Positions 7,612 to 20,485 of a stretch of 22,841 nucleotides of DNA are shown one piece after another. Every line of letters begins with the position of its first letter. Position 1 is the stretch's first letter. The position numbers were made by a program, and so were the translations under genes. The DNA comes from a virus: positions 1 to 22,841 of IMG/VR virus record IMGVR_UViG_3300025141_000816; one strand, 5' to 3'. The notes beneath the pieces were generated by a model. It searched no databases. It worked only from the letters and a program-made list of their open reading frames with translations, and had not been told where the DNA came from.

Positions 7612-7888
7612 TACACCACATGGAACAGCGTCTTTAAAAGATAATTCTCAATGGGGAGATAAATTAGAAATAGCTACAAAAATACAGGATTTACATGCTA
7701 GGATAGGAGAGATTCAAGATTTGTGGTATAGAGCAGACGAAACTAGTAAAGGACATAAGGAATTATATTCAGAAACATTAGATAATGTAGTACGTTTAGC
7801 TGCTTTTGCATCAGGACTTGGAGCAGACCTACATGTTTATGTATTAAATAAGGTTCAAAAATGGGAGAAAGAAGATGCGTCAGAGTGA
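7595..7888 (+). CDS. Helical protein of unknown function
   Basis: The 97-residue protein is mostly predicted helix (LEIATKIQDLHARIGEIQDLWY, then ELYSETLDNVVRLAAF). No catalytic motif or family is recognised. It overlaps genes on both sides (17 and 14 bases). It ends with UGA followed directly by a second UGA (7886-7891), which shows that UGA works as a normal stop in this genome; this matters for the recoded UGA at 17865. Confidence 0.6.
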   Translation: MTEKVNTPHGTASLKDNSQWGDKLEIATKIQDLHARIGEIQDLWYRADETSKGHKELYSETLDNVVRLAAFASGLGADLHVYVLNKVQKWEKEDASE

Positions 7889-9586: not shown

Positions 9587-9869
9587 AGACCATACTGAAC
9601 AAGAGAGACATATACAACATTTATTAGATGAGTCTGGTTTGCGTTATGATACGCAGTACTCATTCATTAATTATATTGTTGATTTTTGGATCGCAGAGCT
9701 TGGATTAGTTATCGAGGCTGACGGTGTTTATGGTCATCTTAAAAAAAGAGACACTAAACGAGATATGGAATTAATGCAGATAGCACAAATAAAGAATGTA
9801 CTGCATATTAAAGAAACAAAGAAGGAGGAAATTAAGGAAGTTTTATGGCAAGCATTAAACAACTTGTGA
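9570..9869 (+). CDS. Vsr/DUF559-like PD-(D/E)XK endonuclease
   Basis: The 99-residue protein has the Vsr-like core INYIVDFWIAELGLVIEADG (D38, E49, D51), followed by H56 and a basic RDTKRDMEL helix. This pattern is shared by very-short-patch repair and DUF559 nucleases. The zinc-binding residues of Vsr are not seen. I chose GTG at 9570 because GAGG (9557-9560) is well spaced; a TTG at 9555 would add five residues. It overlaps recA by 17 bases and the next gene by 25, and it ends with UGA. It probably nicks or cuts recombination or mismatch intermediates. Confidence 0.7.
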   Translation: MNLRPKDHTEQERHIQHLLDESGLRYDTQYSFINYIVDFWIAELGLVIEADGVYGHLKKRDTKRDMELMQIAQIKNVLHIKETKKEEIKEVLWQALNNL

Positions 9870-12016: not shown

Positions 12017-12520
12017 ATGCCTAAGAAATTACCTGAAGAGGTTAAACTTAAAGCGTTAGAGTTATATTTATCAGGAGATAATACCGCAGATACTATCTCT
12101 GACAAACTAAGTAAAGAATTTAATGTGAAGGTAGCAACTTCAACAGTTTATTCATGGATTAAGTTAGACGGGTGGAAGGATACTAAATTAGCCACCCGTG
12201 CTAATGCTATAACAAAAGTACAAGAGTCCGAAACACAGCGATACGCTAGATTACAAGAAGAGCATTTAAATGAGTATGAAGCTCTACGACACAAAGCTGT
12301 AAATGAATTAGGGACTTTAAATTTTAATCGTGCTTTTGATGCCGCTAAAGCATTGGATTTAAGTATTCAAGGGGAGCGGCATGTAATGGAAGGTTTAATT
12401 AATCTTCAATTTGTACAGGATGTTATGTCAGTATTAATTGACGAGATTCAAGACCCAGATTTGCTACAACGAGTAGCTTTTAAATTAAAAACATTAGTAC
12501 AAAAGGATGGAGATGGTTAA
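12017..12520 (+). CDS. terS: Terminase small subunit-like DNA-binding protein
   Basis: The 167-residue protein has an N-terminal helix-turn-helix (EEVKLKALELYLSGDNT, then VATSTVYSWIKLDGW), the usual DNA-recognition domain of small terminases. A long helical middle (QESETQRYARLQEEHLNEYE) would form the oligomer ring. It directly precedes the large terminase and overlaps it by 8 bases. Small terminases are poorly conserved, so position is part of the evidence. It would recognise the packaging start and activate the motor. Confidence 0.8.
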   Translation: MPKKLPEEVKLKALELYLSGDNTADTISDKLSKEFNVKVATSTVYSWIKLDGWKDTKLATRANAITKVQESETQRYARLQEEHLNEYEALRHKAVNELGTLNFNRAFDAAKALDLSIQGERHVMEGLINLQFVQDVMSVLIDEIQDPDLLQRVAFKLKTLVQKDGDG

Positions 12521-14195
12521 ACCAAATGATGTAACAACTTTTAGCAAAGCTTTTGAATTATTATCGGAGGGCTTAACGACCCATACGTCAACTCGTGTCG
12601 GTAGTTTTTGGGAGTTTTTACGGGATATTTGGTCACAAGGATTCGATCATCCCGAATATTTTAAAGCTTGGCATATAGGAGTTATTGCAGAGGATATAGA
12701 ACAATGTTTACAGGAAGATTTAAATTATGTAGCTGTGTTACCACGGTTTCATTTTAAGTCAACTATATTAGGACATGCCTTTAGTGTTTGGAGATTGTTA
12801 CAGTCTACACGAGACATGGCAGTTTTATACTTATCATATAGTGATGGTATGGCTAAATATCATATCTCTGAAATTAATAAGGAAATCGCAAGAAACCCTA
12901 TTCTTTCAGAAATGATGGTAAATAGAACTCCAAAAGCTGATTATTCATGTAGGTATTATTTACAAAATAAACCAATTGAAATTATGCATGGAGGATTATT
13001 TTCTTTTAAAAGAGGTTTACATGTTAATGGAGCCTTAATTGCTGATGACGTTTTACGTGATCCTGAAAACCCTTTGAACATGGGACAGATTACAAAAGTA
13101 GAGGATCACTTTATGACAGAGAGTTTATTCATTCCGCTTAAAGGAGTTCCTACAATTGTATTAGGAACACCTATGATGCCGGGTGACCTCTTGACAGTAT
13201 TGCAGAAAGATGATAGATTTAAATCAAGAATATTACCAGCTTTAGACCCCGCTCCAAATAGGCGAGTTCTAATGCCAGAGTTATATTCAGAAGATTGGTT
13301 ATTAACACAACAGAAGGCACGACCTAAATCGTTTGCTTCCGAGTTTTTGTTAGTACCCCATTTTTCAACTGAATCATATTTTAATACAGAGGATATAGAA
13401 AAATTAGAAGACCCAGAGTTGAGGAATTTACCTACAACTAAACCGTATACAGAGTCGGTTGACGAACAAATATTCGCTGGGTTTGATGTGGGGAAAAAGA
13501 GACATCCATCACATCTCGTTATTTTCAGAAAGATTGGAGATAAAGTAGAGCAGATACATCAATCATGGTTAGATGGTTGGAGTTATTCAGATCAAGTAGA
13601 GTATCTGAACGAAGCGGCAGAAAATTTTAATATTACACGAGGATATATAGACAATACTCGTGGAGAGTTAGAAGATAGAGGACTAGACCATAAATGGCGT
13701 TCCATGTCGTTTACATTAAAATCTAAGAATACGATGGCTCATATATTTGAGCAGTTCGTACATTCTGGGAATTTAAAACTGCTTCAAGATGAACGACAAA
13801 AATCGCAGATTTTATCTGTAAGTAACGAATTGAAAGCACCCGAAACACCTATGGGACACGGAGACGCATTCTTCTCAGTTGCAATGGCATTACAAGCATG
13901 TCATGAATTATCGCAAGATGTTTATACAACAGTAGGGAGTGCTACAGATTGGCTAGAGGCGGTATCGCCCGGAGAACAATCAGCACCAAAGGCAAGTGTA
14001 CAAATAGAAGCCACATTACGTGGCAAAAAAGACGGAATAAAAGATTTAGAATCAGGAGAAACTCAGTTATCATGGAATGATACAAAACAAGTTGGGGCAA
14101 CTGCTCCAAATCCTGACTGTCAAGAAGGCATCTGTGTCGAATCGTTTTGGGTTACAGAAAACAATTTATGTCTCTACTGTGGATATCGAGGATAA
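12513..14195 (+). CDS. terL: Terminase large subunit with C-terminal zinc-ribbon-like extension
   Basis: The 560-residue packaging motor has an N-terminal ATPase with a Walker A of PRFHFKST (77-84) and a Walker B of LIADD (175-179), where most have DE. A coupling motif region VLGTPM (216-221) follows. The RNase H-like nuclease has GFDVGKK (D325), GYIDNTRGE (D380) and HGDAFFSV (D451). After a Ser/Pro-rich linker the last 25 residues carry C536-x4-C541 and C553-x2-C556, a zinc-ribbon-like end that is not usual. I start at 12513 because AAGG at 12503-12506 is well spaced; an ATG at 12507 would add two residues but lies against the ribosome binding site. Confidence 0.95.
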   Translation: MVKPNDVTTFSKAFELLSEGLTTHTSTRVGSFWEFLRDIWSQGFDHPEYFKAWHIGVIAEDIEQCLQEDLNYVAVLPRFHFKSTILGHAFSVWRLLQSTRDMAVLYLSYSDGMAKYHISEINKEIARNPILSEMMVNRTPKADYSCRYYLQNKPIEIMHGGLFSFKRGLHVNGALIADDVLRDPENPLNMGQITKVEDHFMTESLFIPLKGVPTIVLGTPMMPGDLLTVLQKDDRFKSRILPALDPAPNRRVLMPELYSEDWLLTQQKARPKSFASEFLLVPHFSTESYFNTEDIEKLEDPELRNLPTTKPYTESVDEQIFAGFDVGKKRHPSHLVIFRKIGDKVEQIHQSWLDGWSYSDQVEYLNEAAENFNITRGYIDNTRGELEDRGLDHKWRSMSFTLKSKNTMAHIFEQFVHSGNLKLLQDERQKSQILSVSNELKAPETPMGHGDAFFSVAMALQACHELSQDVYTTVGSATDWLEAVSPGEQSAPKASVQIEATLRGKKDGIKDLESGETQLSWNDTKQVGATAPNPDCQEGICVESFWVTENNLCLYCGYRG

Positions 14196-14216: not shown

Positions 14217-16106
14217 ATGACAACTACGTTAGAACCACATGCTGAAACTGTGGCGAGAAATCGTTACTACCTAAAAAATACTAAAGGGGAAACTATTGAA
14301 GATGGAAACGCTTTATTTAGTCGGGTGGCTGAAGCCATTGCGAAAGTTGAAGATGATTACTTTACTTTACCTGTTGAAAAGGATTTACTTAAACAAGAGT
14401 TTATAGATATAATGGAGCGGTTAGAGTTTATTCCTAACTCTCCAACTCTAATGAATGCTGGAACTGAACAAGGAACTTTATCAGCTTGTTTTGTATTACC
14501 TCTTGAGGATAGTATGCAAGAGATTATGAAAACGGCACAAGATATGGCGATGGTTCAAAAGTTTGGAGGAGGAACAGGATTTTCATTATCCCGTTTACGT
14601 CCTACAGGAACCAGTATTAAAACTACTCATGGTAAGGCATGTGGCCCTATTGAAGTATTAAAAACACTTTCACGAGTATCTTCTATGGTAACACAAGCAG
14701 GAAAACGAGACGGTGCTAATATGGCAGTCATGTCAGTTTATCATCCCGATATCCTTAATTTTATTGACTGTAAAGCAACTGAAGGGGATATTCATAATTT
14801 TAATATTTCTGTTGGTGTTGACTCTCGATGGATGAAAATGGTTGAACATGACATGTCGTATGGATTAATTGATCCACACACTAATCATCTAGTTGATATG
14901 TTATCAGCTCGATACGTATTTACAAAAATTGTTGAGGGGGCGTGGAGGAACGGAGAACCCGGAATGATTTTCTTAGACGAAGTTAATAAAGATAATAAAG
15001 TTTCAGAACAATATGGAGAAATGATTGCAACTAATCCGTGTGGTGAACAACCACTTCTTGGAAACGAGTCCTGTAATTTAGGATCAATTAATGTAGCTAA
15101 ATTCTATAGATCAGTACCTAGCTATGACGCATCGGGACTTGTGTCGGAGAATATAGATACATCATGGGAAGAACACATCAACTGGCAACGATTAGCTAAA
15201 GTTACAAAATTAGCTACTAACTTTTTAGATAATGTAATTGATGCAAATTATTATGCCACCCCTGAAATTGAACAGATGACCAAATCGACACGGAAAATTG
15301 GGGTGGGAATTATGGGATTTGCTGACTTACTTATACAATTAAGAGTGTCTTATAATAGTGAAGATGCACGAAAGATCGCAGGGATACTCATACAATTCAT
15401 AACACAAGAAGCTGATCTAGCATCTCTTGATCTTGCAGCAAGACGGGGAACTTTTCCTGCATGGGAACAAAGTTCTTTTGATCATGTAACTGAAACATAT
15501 AGAAATGCTTGTCGCATGACTGTTGCACCAACGGGAACCATTTCCATGTTAGCAGATTGTTCATCAGGTATTGAACCCACTTTTGCCTTAGCGTGGAGAA
15601 AACAGAATATTTTAAAAGAGGAAACTGGAGAAGCTCAAACTTTAACGTACGTTAATAAATACTTTGAACAAGAAGCTAAAGATCGTGAATTCTATTCTGA
15701 AGACCTTATGACGTATTTAGCTGAGGGTGGTAGTTTGCAGGATCGAACTGATGTTCCGAATGATATAAAGGAGATTTATATTACATCACCAGAATTACTT
15801 CCTGAAGAACATGTTTTAATGCAAGCAGCTTTTCAATCATATGTTGATTCAGGTATATCTAAAACTATTAATATGCCTAATGATGCAACAGTACAGGATG
15901 TATGGGATACGTATATGTTGGCATGGAAAACAGAATGTAAAGGTATTACTGTTTATAGGGCTGGAAGTCGAGAGAAAGAAATTCTTGTGAAAGGGATTAA
16001 AAATGAGGATGTAACATTTGATTGTTGCGAAAACCCAAAGATTATTTATGAGAGTGGTTGTCATAAGTGTTTATCTTGTGACTGGAGTGCCTGTGAAATT
16101 GCATAA
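14217..16106 (+). CDS. nrdJ: Class II (adenosylcobalamin-dependent) ribonucleotide reductase
   Basis: The 629-residue enzyme reduces ribonucleotides to deoxyribonucleotides. The redox cysteine pair is in LSACFVLPLEDSM (C91) and GNESCNLGSIN (C286), and the radical-site motif is NPCGEQ (N273, C275, E277). Substrate phosphate binding is indicated by PTGTISM. The C-terminal swinging arm is GCHKCLSCDWSAC (C615, C618, C621, C626), as in NrdJ. No small subunit follows and no glycyl-radical motif is seen, which supports class II, so cobalamin would be needed. The AAGGAGG site (14200-14206) is very strong. It is placed between terminase and portal, and the UGA-containing glutaredoxin lies 1.7 kb downstream as a likely electron donor. 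Confidence 0.93.
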   Translation: MTTTLEPHAETVARNRYYLKNTKGETIEDGNALFSRVAEAIAKVEDDYFTLPVEKDLLKQEFIDIMERLEFIPNSPTLMNAGTEQGTLSACFVLPLEDSMQEIMKTAQDMAMVQKFGGGTGFSLSRLRPTGTSIKTTHGKACGPIEVLKTLSRVSSMVTQAGKRDGANMAVMSVYHPDILNFIDCKATEGDIHNFNISVGVDSRWMKMVEHDMSYGLIDPHTNHLVDMLSARYVFTKIVEGAWRNGEPGMIFLDEVNKDNKVSEQYGEMIATNPCGEQPLLGNESCNLGSINVAKFYRSVPSYDASGLVSENIDTSWEEHINWQRLAKVTKLATNFLDNVIDANYYATPEIEQMTKSTRKIGVGIMGFADLLIQLRVSYNSEDARKIAGILIQFITQEADLASLDLAARRGTFPAWEQSSFDHVTETYRNACRMTVAPTGTISMLADCSSGIEPTFALAWRKQNILKEETGEAQTLTYVNKYFEQEAKDREFYSEDLMTYLAEGGSLQDRTDVPNDIKEIYITSPELLPEEHVLMQAAFQSYVDSGISKTINMPNDATVQDVWDTYMLAWKTECKGITVYRAGSREKEILVKGIKNEDVTFDCCENPKIIYESGCHKCLSCDWSACEIA

Positions 16107-16174: not shown

Positions 16175-17614
16175 ATGATACAACGGTTTTTAAAGAGTAT
16201 TTTATCAGTTATAGCAATACCTGAAATTAAAATACCGACTATTAAGTTACTTAAGATTAGTTTTAGCTCGCCAAACATTACCCTACCAAAAGTAAAGATA
16301 CCTGTTAAGCAGATGACTAAAACATTGGGAGTGGTAAATACAGCATTATTAGTATTAATGGGGAGTTTTGGATTAATATGTTCATACATTAATCCGATTC
16401 CGACACTTGCCCCTTATATACAGCTTAGTATAGCGAATAAATTATTTGATTTTGTTATTTATTTACAGGCAAATATAATACCTACAATTTCTGCATCGTC
16501 AGGTTTAATTGTTCTTGGATTATTATTGCACGTAGGTAATTTTAAAGCGTGGTGGAAGACTATTAAAGCTACACCAATGGTTATTGTAAGATCACCAATT
16601 AAAGCGTATCGAAAAATAACAGTCTGGAGAAACTGGCTGCTGGTTAAGATAGAATATTTAAATTCTGAATCAGCGAAATGGAAAACAGCCTTTAAAATTG
16701 TAATGTCTCCTTATTCTTTCTTGAGAATGATGGGATTAAGTCCACAAATGGCTATAGGCTTGTTAGCACTTGGTGGTACGGCGGGTACTGGAGTCGTTGT
16801 GAATGAGACGGTTTTAGCGGACAGAAGTTTCACAAATGGAGATAGTGGAATATACGCTGCTCCTGCTCTGAATCCTTCTCCTACATTGGAACAAACAATG
16901 GCATGGAGAAAAGAAAACAAAGAAGATAATACGTTAAGAATAGTTTTAACGGACACTCCTGTAAGGGAGATTAAGATTGAAAATGTAACAGTAGGTACGG
17001 TTTATACCGGGTCTGCGATACCTTCATCAGCACATACTTCTGCTGGTGGTACTGCGGCTGCGGCTACAGCAGTATTAATTGGAGGAACAGTAGTAACTGG
17101 AGAGAATGCAGTTCCCACTTTTCTAGAGGTAGGCGAATTACTGATCGAGAAGTCGAGATGTACGTTTATGTATTTCGATAATATTACGGCGCATACGATT
17201 AACGTAATTGGAAACGCCTCAGACGGGCAGTCGATTAATCAATCACCGGGAACCTCAAGAATGAGAGCAGTCGGTGGTGGACATCATCAGGCTGAAGCGA
17301 TGGTGACTTCGGGCGGATCATATGATAGAATACATATCGATGCCCCAACCTCATCGAAAAATGGGAAAATAGATAAACTAACCCTTTCAAATTTATTTAC
17401 TGAAGGGGGCGCATGTGTATTTGACCGGATGAAAATCGGCACATTAACTATTAAACTTAATGAGATAGGAGGAGGCGGTAATGCTGGTGCGGCTGATGGA
17501 TTTGCTACTAAGGAATTTAAAATTGCCGAAAGTGTCACAGCAGCCAACTGGAACGTTTCTGATAACGTTGAGGTAACTATTGCAGCACCAACTGAGACGG
17601 TGACTAACGAATAA
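16175..17614 (+). CDS. Multi-pass membrane protein with beta-rich C-terminal domain, unknown function
   Basis: The 479-residue protein starts with a repeated I-P-x-I/V-K pattern (IPEIKIPTIK, ITLPKVKIP) and then has hydrophobic segments at about 51-72, 91-120 and 188-208. The remainder (about 250-479) is rich in short beta strands, Gly, Ala and Thr (IVLTDTPVREIKIENVTVG, GGTAAAATAVLIGGTVVTG, KIDKLTLSNLF), suggestive of a beta-helix or beta-sandwich. It has a GAGGTGA site (16164-16170) and its own promoter. This could be a virion membrane/surface protein, a superinfection factor or a fibre-like protein held in the host membrane. No family is recognised and the topology is inference. Confidence 0.65.
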   Translation: MIQRFLKSILSVIAIPEIKIPTIKLLKISFSSPNITLPKVKIPVKQMTKTLGVVNTALLVLMGSFGLICSYINPIPTLAPYIQLSIANKLFDFVIYLQANIIPTISASSGLIVLGLLLHVGNFKAWWKTIKATPMVIVRSPIKAYRKITVWRNWLLVKIEYLNSESAKWKTAFKIVMSPYSFLRMMGLSPQMAIGLLALGGTAGTGVVVNETVLADRSFTNGDSGIYAAPALNPSPTLEQTMAWRKENKEDNTLRIVLTDTPVREIKIENVTVGTVYTGSAIPSSAHTSAGGTAAAATAVLIGGTVVTGENAVPTFLEVGELLIEKSRCTFMYFDNITAHTINVIGNASDGQSINQSPGTSRMRAVGGGHHQAEAMVTSGGSYDRIHIDAPTSSKNGKIDKLTLSNLFTEGGACVFDRMKIGTLTIKLNEIGGGGNAGAADGFATKEFKIAESVTAANWNVSDNVEVTIAAPTETVTNE

Positions 17615-17624
17615 AGGTGACACA

Positions 17625-17732
17625 ATGGAGCCAAAAAATTCAGATTTATGGGGGCTGCTAATACAATCGACAGTCCTCATCGCAGTCTTATTATTAGTAG
17701 GCGTTATTGTAATGGAGGGATTAAATGGCTAG
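17625..17732 (+). CDS. 35-residue single-span membrane microprotein
   Basis: ATG at 17625 follows an AAAGGTG site (17614-17620) and opens a 35-codon frame ending at TAG (17730-17732). After the polar start MEPKNSDLWG the rest is one hydrophobic span (LLIQSTVLIAVLLLVGVIV). It fills the gap after the large membrane protein and overlaps the next small gene by 8 bases, the same packing as accepted genes here. It might be a small holin-like or partner subunit; this is unproven. Confidence 0.55.
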   Translation: MEPKNSDLWGLLIQSTVLIAVLLLVGVIVMEGLNG

Positions 17733-17832
17733 AAGGAACTGGACAAAGTGTAAGTGTGGTGTTAAACTACACGTAAAGAAAGAACGTAGAGTATGCTACG
17801 TATGTGAACGCAAACAACGAAAGGAGACATAA
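17725..17832 (+). CDS. 35-residue zinc-ribbon microprotein
   Basis: ATG at 17725 has a very good GGAGGG site (17714-17719) and a 35-codon frame ending at TAA (17830-17832). The product is strongly basic and has C9-x-C11 (TKCKCG) and C24-x2-C27 (VCYVCERK), a minimal four-cysteine zinc site. It probably binds nucleic acid or docks to another protein. Its stop overlaps the glutaredoxin start (TAATG), so translation of the two is coupled. Confidence 0.6.
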   Translation: MARRNWTKCKCGVKLHVKKERRVCYVCERKQRKET

Positions 17833-18059
17833 TGGCAGATATAACAATATTCACATCTAATGGTTGAGGCCCGTGTATGGCAACCAAGTCTTGGTTAAAA
17901 AGCAAGGGACACTCTTTTACAGAGTATAATATCTCAGAGAATGTAGAATATGCAGATAGATTAGTACAAATGGGTTATAGAGTAACACCAGTAGTGGTTA
18001 TAGGAGGAGATACGATAGTGGGATTTAGCCCACAGAAACTAGCAGCAGCTTTAGAATAG
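17832..18059 (+). CDS. Glutaredoxin-family protein with in-frame UGA at the active site (candidate selenoprotein)
   Basis: ATG at 17832 has an AAGGAG site (17821-17826) five bases upstream. The frame reads MADITIFTSNG, then TGA (17865-17867), then GPCMATKSWL, and ends at TAG 18059. With the UGA read as selenocysteine the product is 75 residues with a complete thioredoxin-fold pattern: strand ITIF, active site U12-G-P-C15, helix, VTPVVVIGG with cis-Pro 53, and DTIVGF near the end, as in glutaredoxin/NrdH/YruB-type proteins. Without readthrough only 11 residues are made. An ATG at 17877 gives 60 residues but lacks a ribosome binding site, the first strand and the active site. UGA replaces exactly the nucleophilic cysteine. 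Alternatives are a TGT-to-TGA mutation or a sequencing error. Confidence 0.85.
17865..17896 (+). promoter_or_regulatory. Candidate bacterial SECIS element downstream of UGA
   Basis: The UGA at 17865-17867 is followed after 14 bases by AACCAA (17882-17887), GUC (17888-17890) and UUGGUU (17891-17896), a perfect six-base-pair hairpin inside the coding frame. The apex AGUCU has its G 21 bases after the UGA. Bacterial SECIS hairpins sit at this distance and need a G at the start of the apical loop; the E. coli fdhF element has GGUC at a nearly identical spacing (from memory). Confidence 0.65.
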
Positions 18060-18077: not shown

Positions 18078-18518
18078 ATGATAGGAAATATGTTAAGAGA
18101 TAGAGAAGTACAATATGTAGCGGTTAAAGACGATCTTACAAATACGTGGCGTATATTAGATACGTGGCACGAGGATTTAAAGTCTTTACAACCTGAAGAT
18201 GAAATTGATGATGAAACTGAGGCAGTTAAAATTCTAACAGAAGGTGAATTTATATCAATCGTAAAAGAGGCGGCACGGACAGGAATTTTAGCGAATGCAA
18301 ACTTTGGTAACGAAGAAGAATATAATGCAATGGTTACTGAAAAAAATGCAGAAATTCAAGATTTACGAGTAAAATTAGAAGCCGCAGAACTTAATACAAA
18401 AAATCCTGAGATTATCAGGGAGCCACGATCTGAAGAATATGAATTAAAAGAGAAAGCTATGAATTCAATTCTTAAACTAGTATCTATGGCGGATATGACT
18501 AATTTAGGTAGGGAATAA
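18078..18518 (+). CDS. Acidic protein of unknown function preceding portal
   Basis: The 146-residue protein has an AAGGAG site (18065-18070) and no recognised domain. Residues 1-35 look like a small beta segment (VQYVAVKDDLTNTWRILDTW). Residues 36-60 are very acidic, and residues about 85-110 form a predicted coiled coil (EEYNAMVTEKNAEIQDLRVK). It ends five bases before the portal gene. An acidic coiled-coil protein next to portal could act as a scaffold or head-assembly helper, but this is inference. Confidence 0.65.
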   Translation: MIGNMLRDREVQYVAVKDDLTNTWRILDTWHEDLKSLQPEDEIDDETEAVKILTEGEFISIVKEAARTGILANANFGNEEEYNAMVTEKNAEIQDLRVKLEAAELNTKNPEIIREPRSEEYELKEKAMNSILKLVSMADMTNLGRE

Positions 18519-18523
18519 AATAT

Positions 18524-20485
18524 ATGAAATTATCAGAATATTTACCAGAAGTGCCACAACTAGCACAACAATTAACTAATCTGAATCAACAGATTGATAT
18601 GATGCAGTTAATGAAAGGTGCTAGTGGTGCTGAAACTGGATCGGCTCCAAGTATAGGACTTGATCATGTGGTCAATACTTGGGTACGCCATCAAATGGCT
18701 TATCGACAACAATTAGTTATGGACTTACAGACTATTGTTATGTCAGTACAGGAAATACGATCACCTTTAAACCATATTACAAATGAGGTTTTTAGGAGAG
18801 GCTTAGAATGGAAAGCTTTAACAGATAATCCTGAAACTGAAACAAAAGAGGCACTTGAAAAATTTCTGAAGAATTGTAATATCTTCTCTCAAAGTTTTGA
18901 AGAAGTTATGAGACAATTCCATTTTGATTTAAACTCGATAGACGATGCGTTTTTATATTTAGCTAAGGAGTATTATAGTGATGGAGATGTCCTCCGATCC
19001 AAAGTTAAAGAGATCAGACGACTCAATCCAGCTTTGGTCGAATTCGACCTTGACACGGCTGGCTTACCTAAAAACGCACATTTTATATGCCCAATCCATA
19101 GAGAAGAACTCTCAGAAGGGCCGGGAACATGCGAAGAAGGTGGTTGTAAGAGAGAGATGCAAGCAGTCATGTATAAGTACTATCATAGAAATCAACACAT
19201 GTATATGTTGGAACACGAAGTTATACATGTATCTAAATTCTCTCCTTCGGAAACTTATGGTTGGAGTCCGATCCTTACGGTTTTTGAAAAAGGATTAACT
19301 CTTATTGGTATGGATAAAAATCTATACCGTTATTTCTTTGAAAGGAAAATGCCCGCTTCCATGATTATGGTAACAACTGATGATCCTGAGAGTCTACGTA
19401 GAGAAAGAGAGCATATAGCAGCCCAAACTCGTATAGACCCTAACTTTATTCCAATGGTAGCTGTTTCAGCTAGAAGTCAAAGAGGTCGAGTAGACCTTGT
19501 ACGACTTTTCCATACACTACAAGAAATGGATTATCTTCCTGTAAGAGAAGAAATACGAGAACGTATCGCAGCTATGTGGGGTGTAACTCCTGCATGGCAA
19601 GGCGCACCTGAAGCATTTGGGGGCTTATCGACACAGACTCAACAATTAGTTGTTATGAGTCGTGTTGTTGAATCAGATCAACGATTAATACATCAAAAAG
19701 TTATTCCTGCTTTATTGGACGCATTCGGCGTAACTGATTGGACATTAGAACTACCAAACCCTGAAGAGAAAGCTGAAGCTACTAAGATTAGTTTTATTCA
19801 GCAAAGGTCGCAAGTAATGCAAACCATGTCTCAACTAGGCTTTATGTTTACATTAAAAGAAGAAGGCGTTCCAATGGAAGATGCCGAATTTATTATTAGT
19901 GGCGATATGGTTCCAGCTGCTCAAATGCAAGCTGAACAACAAGCTATGCAATTGGCTCAACAGGAACAGCAATATCAAATGGCTCAAGCTCAACAGCAAA
20001 TGCAGGAACAGCAAATGGGAGGCGGTGAGGAAGGTCTTCCTGCTCCTCCGGGTGATGAGGGAGCAACTCCTATTCAGGCAATGCTTAAAGCTGATGGGAA
20101 GTTTGAAGGTCGTACCGCAGGACGAACTCCTGACTGGCATGATAAAGCTCCTAATGAAGAACGTGATATTGATGAATATGCAGAGGCACGAGCCAAGAAA
20201 GCAGAGAATCGTCAATTTGGATATAAAGAAGTTGGCGGGGCTATGAATAAAACATGGATGGGAGACTTAATGCAAAAAGGATTTTCTAGTCCAGTTGTTA
20301 AAGAGGTAAGTGCTGACGGTACTAAATTATGGTTTCTACAAAATGGTGTAGATTACGTAGCTGATCTAGGAATGAACGGTGTTTTAGCCATTGAAAAAGC
20401 TACTTTCAATACTACTAGACCAGAACGTCCTAAGACTCCTATTGACAATACACCAGCAGTACTAGATATTACCGAGGATATTTAA
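18524..20485 (+). CDS. Portal protein with zinc-knuckle insertion and Gln-rich tail
   Basis: The 653-residue protein is the dodecameric ring through which DNA enters and leaves the head. The core shows IRSPLNHITNEVFRRG, then the DAFLYLAKEYY region, VIHVSKFSPSETYGWSPI, and the stem/clip helix region IRERIAAMWGVTPAWQG followed by QTQQLVVMSRVVESDQ, all in usual order for large phage portals. Inserted at 189-208 is C189-x2-H192-x10-C203-x4-C208, a zinc-knuckle-like site. Residues about 473-508 are almost wholly Gln/Met/Ala. The C-terminal 100 residues form an extra domain (NKTWMGDLMQKGFSSP, WFLQNGVDYVADLG) ending with KTPIDNT, a motif that recurs in the next gene. Confidence 0.85.
   Translation: MKLSEYLPEVPQLAQQLTNLNQQIDMMQLMKGASGAETGSAPSIGLDHVVNTWVRHQMAYRQQLVMDLQTIVMSVQEIRSPLNHITNEVFRRGLEWKALTDNPETETKEALEKFLKNCNIFSQSFEEVMRQFHFDLNSIDDAFLYLAKEYYSDGDVLRSKVKEIRRLNPALVEFDLDTAGLPKNAHFICPIHREELSEGPGTCEEGGCKREMQAVMYKYYHRNQHMYMLEHEVIHVSKFSPSETYGWSPILTVFEKGLTLIGMDKNLYRYFFERKMPASMIMVTTDDPESLRREREHIAAQTRIDPNFIPMVAVSARSQRGRVDLVRLFHTLQEMDYLPVREEIRERIAAMWGVTPAWQGAPEAFGGLSTQTQQLVVMSRVVESDQRLIHQKVIPALLDAFGVTDWTLELPNPEEKAEATKISFIQQRSQVMQTMSQLGFMFTLKEEGVPMEDAEFIISGDMVPAAQMQAEQQAMQLAQQEQQYQMAQAQQQMQEQQMGGGEEGLPAPPGDEGATPIQAMLKADGKFEGRTAGRTPDWHDKAPNEERDIDEYAEARAKKAENRQFGYKEVGGAMNKTWMGDLMQKGFSSPVVKEVSADGTKLWFLQNGVDYVADLGMNGVLAIEKATFNTTRPERPKTPIDNTPAVLDITEDI

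Follow-up and report, generated by a model that had tools for sequence, protein, structure and literature searches.

In a small redoxin gene of this phage, the twelfth codon is TGA, and the question is whether that codon is decoded as selenocysteine (Sec), the rare 21st amino acid, made by a subset of bacteria, or has some more ordinary explanation. The window, by which we mean the whole stretch of DNA that was analysed, is 22,841 bases long and spans all of its viral record. Family and profile matches identify among its genes a terminase, a portal, a family A DNA polymerase, a DnaB-like helicase, a primase, a RecA-like recombinase and a class II ribonucleotide reductase (RNR). The redoxin gene lies between the RNR and the portal. 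The features around it are as follows, with the basis for each in brackets.

12507..14195, + strand: terminase large subunit (phrog_38, 2.5e-23)
14217..16106, + strand: class II (adenosylcobalamin-dependent, B12) RNR, NrdJ (TIGR02504, 637.7 bits, cut-off 400)
16175..17614, + strand: conserved 479-aa gene of unknown function between the RNR and the redoxin (conservation)
17725..17832, + strand: 35-aa Cys-rich, zinc-ribbon-like ORF whose stop overlaps the redoxin start as TAATG (sequence)
17820..17826, + strand: strong Shine-Dalgarno AAAGGAG, 5 nt 5' of the redoxin ATG (sequence)
17832..18059, + strand: NrdH-type glutaredoxin gene, very likely Sec-containing, 75 aa with TGA read as Sec (family, fold, relatives)
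17865..17867, + strand: in-frame UGA, very likely Sec12, at the N-terminal (nucleophilic) position of U-G-P-C (TGA kept in relatives, Cys in L021-L025)
17881..17897, + strand: SECIS-like hairpin (comparative pairing, covariation)
18078..18518, + strand: conserved gene directly 3' of the redoxin, without a family match (conservation)
18524..20485, + strand: portal protein (phrog_18178, 1e-40)

The 479-aa protein likewise has no family match, and it was not detected in the two Cys-phage loci that were fetched (L021 and L022). An HSP20 small heat-shock protein is also phage-encoded, at 940-1371 of the window. A DNA-level search of isolated phages found no relatives, and for the terminase large subunit only a 21% match, in Sinorhizobium phage Aussie, came up. 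Unannotated redoxins of the isolated phages Enterococcus 9184 and Staphylococcus Machias were considered as candidates and rejected, since they have Cys and not Sec.

The redoxin gene and its family

The reading frame starts at ATG 17832-17834, passes through TGA 17865-17867 (codon 12) and ends at TAG 18057-18059. With U for Sec, its translation is MADITIFTSNGUGPCMATKSWLKSKGHSFTEYNISENVEYADRLVQMGYRVTPVVVIGGDTIVGFSPQKLAAALE. The original prediction, made from the sequence alone, had given these coordinates exactly, together with a good AAGGAG site and a start coupled to the preceding gene, both of which held. It had also described a glutaredoxin with an intact strand before the UGA and an intact fold after it; that held as well, with NrdH-type redoxin being a better name than classical glutaredoxin.

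When Cys is read at the TGA, the protein matches the Pfam glutaredoxin family PF00462 with E = 3e-14 and 53.2 bits, above the gathering threshold of 22.9. In an AlphaFold model (pLDDT 94), helix 1 begins at U-G-P-C. The best PDB matches are to NrdH (4hs1 and 1h75, each with TM 0.87), and the Sec-Grx relative cGrx1 (7c10) is also a close structural match. The curated cut-offs were not reached for NrdH TIGR02194 (67.3 vs 85.75 bits) or for Uxx_star NF041212 (49 vs 66 bits). The fold and 75-aa size of an NrdH are met, as is linkage to an RNR, so that the protein is NrdH-type by likeness and not by curated membership.

Each of the nearest known systems shares part of this profile. The bacterial Sec glutaredoxins (PF00462 UxxC; cGrx1 of Clostridium/Alkaliphilus, and Geobacter) have the same fold, Sec as the first residue of UxxC, and a bacterial-type hairpin after the UGA, but they are cellular, whereas the phage redoxin is near a phage RNR, has the motif GUGPC and is of NrdH-like size. 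The NrdH-redoxins of TIGR02194 share the size, the fold and the RNR neighbourhood; known NrdH proteins use Cys, unlike the phage redoxin. The Uxx-star glutaredoxin-like (seleno)proteins (NF041212, NF041211, NF041114) are, like it, small and Grx-like with Sec, and no description of them from phages was found in the literature searched.

The TGA codon and the hairpin after it

A protein search recovered 25 viral loci, with TGA at the redoxin codon in 20 and TGC or TGT in five (L021-L025). A DNA pattern search of IMG/VR, beyond the window, returned 46 contigs; 44 of them, from about 23 samples, encode a GUGPC redoxin with TGA at the same codon, and the matches in L080 and L087 are due to chance. 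The pattern itself required TGA, so the 44 contigs give no Sec:Cys ratio; TGA-bearing relatives were also recovered by searches without that requirement. The TGA also stands in L001, L002 and L003, three contigs from other samples that are nearly identical (95-99% protein identity). An assembly error is ruled out as the source of the TGA at 17865-17867. The protein is conserved on both sides of it, with synonymous variation.

Elsewhere TGA functions as a stop. In the window it truly terminates genes at 7886-7888 and at 9867-9869, and it ends long ORFs in relatives. The 24 confident window genes stop at TAA (21), TAG (2) and TGA (1), and the remaining confident genes contain no in-frame TGA. 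An all-against-all scan for further genes with a conserved in-frame TGA yielded only apparent antisense shadows of real genes. Hence the original prediction held in its claims that UGA ends genes at 7886 and 9867, without a general code change, and that the UGA falls on the nucleophilic Cys of a CxxC site, where some orthologues have Cys. It had proposed looking for homologous phage contigs with TGA or with TGT/TGC, and both were found; its refutation, TGT or TGC at this codon in independent data, fails on the three near-identical contigs. Among the properties by which bacterial selenoproteins are recognised, an in-frame UGA conserved at a redox position with Cys homologues in existence, and UGA acting as a stop elsewhere in the genome, are both met.

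A further such property is a hairpin just 3' of the UGA with an early G in a small apical loop, as is known for bacterial SECIS elements (PMC1088965), and it is met as well. In the window, 17882-17886 pairs with 17892-17896, the outer C17881 and A17897 are mismatched, and the apical loop at 17887-17891 reads AGTCT, its G at 17888 being invariant. In the family generally, a six-pair stem starts 13 nt after the UGA, a fixed distance, and a 5-nt loop AGNNN starts at nt 20. The comparison comprised 30 distinct sequences 3' of the UGA, with the L098 type left out. The loop G is invariant (30/30), 98.3% of stem cells are paired, and the stem shows 13 double changes of C-G to U-A. The outer pair is C-G in 14 sequences and U-A in 13; the other three, which are of the window's type, have a mismatch there. 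Covariation is 0.241; shuffles give 0.178, none of 500 being as high, and sliding leaves at most 0.085. Both outer-pair types, C-G and U-A, occur in both large Sec clades of the redoxin tree; reading that tree by hand, we estimate that the outer pair switched about three times.

The synonymous positions are also constrained. The Lys codon at +7, in the loop, is AAG in 33 of 33 rows, against a genome usage of 26% AAG and 74% AAA, whereas these genes almost always use AAA for the Lys at codon +11. The Thr codon at +6, in the stem, is ACC in 30 of 33, against 11% ACC in the genome, and the Thr at codon -4 is ACA in 28 of 33. Of the codon pairs for the same residue, a fraction of 0.148 differ synonymously within the hairpin, compared with 0.365-0.544 in the surrounding codons. 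Since these wobble bases are fixed against the codon bias of the genome, the constraint acts on the RNA. The folding energy of the window hairpin alone is no better than that of shuffled sequence (z 0.4 to -1.4), and because single-sequence folding is not significant, the case for the hairpin rests on comparison.

The Cys orthologues lack the hairpin. In L021, L022 and L025, which have Cys at the site, the MATKSWL peptide is identical, and it is encoded with GCT-ACG-AAA vs GCA-ACC-AAG in the Sec phages. The wobble changes ACC>ACG, AAG>AAA and GCA>GCT break the stem and abolish the loop G.

Homologues with an apparent Sec also occur in cells. Dehalococcoidia redoxins (L053, L125-L129) have the GUGPC site of the phage at 43-50% identity, in genomes with tRNA-Sec. 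Their hairpin differs from that of the phage in its stem and register (GUGAAAG-UGUAY-CUUUCAC), and L129 shows a G-C to U-A change in it. Four IMG/VR contigs of 24-105 kb (L098, L101, L106, L116) represent a second, distantly related viral lineage with its own terminase and portal and a Sec redoxin; its hairpin (CGAAAG-CGUGG-CUUUCG) is in another register and resembles the Dehalococcoidia one. As separate observations, many of the Dehalococcoidia genomes L125-L152 encode at least one small Grx-like protein whose first active-site residue is an in-frame TGA (GUGPC, UGSC, UPYC, UAFC and others), and Acidaminobacter sp. JC074 (L067), whose genome has tRNA-Sec, encodes a Grx-like UPHC protein with an in-frame TGA.

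Since the TGA is conserved, the hairpin covaries and is synonymously constrained, the Cys orthologues lack it, and cellular Sec homologues exist, the Sec reading of the original prediction is supported, although Sec insertion has not been shown biochemically. We conclude that the gene at 17832-18059 very probably encodes a phage selenoprotein, an NrdH-type redoxin with an attacking Sec; there is no protein, selenium-labelling or reporter evidence.

Proposed function and rival explanations

From the sequence features, it is inferred that host SelB and Sec-tRNA-Sec would recognise the hairpin after the UGA and insert Sec instead of terminating. From synteny and family, the selenolate of Sec12 is predicted to attack the oxidised C-terminal cysteines (disulfide) of the phage NrdJ, and Cys15 would resolve the intermediate (U12-G-P-C15), by which the dNTP supply may be kept up during phage DNA synthesis. 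NrdJ is encoded upstream of the redoxin on the same strand, 1.7 kb away, and several Cys residues lie at its C-terminus (GCHKCLSCDWSAC). Among 35 related records, 22-23 contain an RNR; those without one are mostly short contigs. NrdJ is thus the probable partner, a judgement that rests on synteny and family only.

The TGA is one base from TGC or TGT, and it could have come from either by a sequencing or assembly error, or the gene could be decayed. Almost no room is left for this by the TGA at that codon in 44 further contigs (about 23 samples), by protein-level conservation with synonymous variation on either side of it, and by the conserved hairpin. Equally little room is left for TGA being generally a sense codon (Trp, Cys or Gly) in the phage or host. 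In favour of that reading, TGA is rare as a stop in such AT-rich genomes, but it ends real window genes and, in relatives, long ORFs, the scan showed no further conserved in-frame TGA outside apparent antisense shadows, and the hairpin would be needless. It is also conceivable that the UGA is recoded by ordinary readthrough (to Cys or another residue), or that it is a regulatory stop separating an 11-aa peptide from a 60-aa protein, since an ORF does begin at ATG 17877. A separately started protein would have neither the first strand nor the nucleophile, and there is no conservation of the internal ATG (A-M, K-M, K-V and T-T in relatives); the hairpin also has the geometry of a SECIS, and Sec and Cys exchange at the catalytic position. 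We regard both versions as very improbable.

A different kind of alternative accepts the Sec redoxin and assigns it to host thiol redox or oxidative defence, and not to the phage RNR. In its favour, known Sec glutaredoxins have other partners, such as the Sec MsrA that one of them reduces (reference 85 of PMC13188914), and a gene of unknown function separates the RNR and the redoxin here. But the nearest family and fold are NrdH, and the RNR is not only frequent in the related records but adjoins the redoxin in the Cys phages, so this seems unlikely. The preferred reading remains a Sec redoxin that serves the phage NrdJ.

Descent, host and meaning

The order TerL-RNR-redoxin-portal in the Cys phages (L021 and L022 loci) matches that of the Sec phages, with the redoxin directly after the RNR in the former. 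In the RNR tree, the Cys phages are nested within the Sec phages with starred support. Given this nesting, reversion from Sec to Cys is more economical than repeated gain of Sec. It is therefore probable, as inferred from one gene, that Sec is ancestral in the phage family and that at least one branch reverted to Cys.

A search of 14 viral records, 18-105 kb long and with contigs of 83-105 kb among them, gave no tRNA-Sec, SelA or SelB; all of these records may be fragments, SelD was outside the search, and G035 was outside that for tRNA-Sec. Dehalococcoidia controls were positive in the same search, and sub-threshold tRNA-Sec matches in phage contigs were identified by ARAGORN as tRNA-Tyr. Since the machinery is undetected in the phage records, the host must supply it, and the phage is likely limited to Sec-decoding hosts. 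The dependence on host SelA/B/C/D that had been proposed at the outset is in this way partly supported.

As to which host, nine of the 197 Dehalococcoidia genomes sampled have an RNR 57-60% identical to the phage enzyme, a group apart from the others, where the figure is about 50% or less; the best match of the phage RNR in 249 Bacillota genomes is 51%, and in isolated phages 42%. An RNR of the phage-like type is found in four of six tested Dehalococcoidia that carry GUGPC, and all Dehalococcoidia tested for tRNA-Sec were positive. The GC content is 36% in the phage vs about 60% on the Dehalococcoidia contigs examined. A host call from terminase relatives in three Dehalococcoidia MAGs was rejected as too weak (34-35% identity, on contigs of 59-62% GC with no other window genes). 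A Dehalococcoidia-like member of Chloroflexota is the leading candidate, which is possible but unproven; other phyla were outside the search, and the GC differs.

Both bacteria and marine metagenomes are known sources of Sec glutaredoxins (PMC1088965, PMC2398784, PMC13188914). A 2026 review of the prokaryotic selenoproteome (PMC13188914) does not mention phages or viruses, and neither it nor two marine selenoproteome surveys describe a phage selenoprotein; no published one was found, with subscription journals and preprints outside the search, and an earlier report is not excluded. This is consistent with the statement in the original prediction that no well-characterised phage selenoprotein of this type was known. 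Phage tRNA-Sec genes of unknown or conjectured function have been reported in Basilisk-like phages (PMC6145125) and in huge wastewater phages (PMC10747093). Those reports have the tRNA without a selenoprotein, whereas here there is a selenoprotein and no tRNA-Sec was found.

The bolder reading, which we consider likely, is that a widespread environmental lineage of tailed phages, and the second lineage as well (L098/L101/L106/L116), encode a selenoprotein wholly dependent on host Sec decoding. The phage's nucleotide reduction, and with it host range, would then hang on the selenium trait, and a natural reversion from Sec to Cys would have taken place within the family. If true, no family of phage selenoproteins would have been described before this one. 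Genes of this kind are cut short or given a wrong start by standard gene callers. The exchange of Sec and Cys at one orthologous locus is a natural experiment, and an RNR electron donor that is quicker or more robust would be a testable reason for a phage to bear the cost of Sec. A phage family in need of Sec would carry a host constraint that can be read from its genome.
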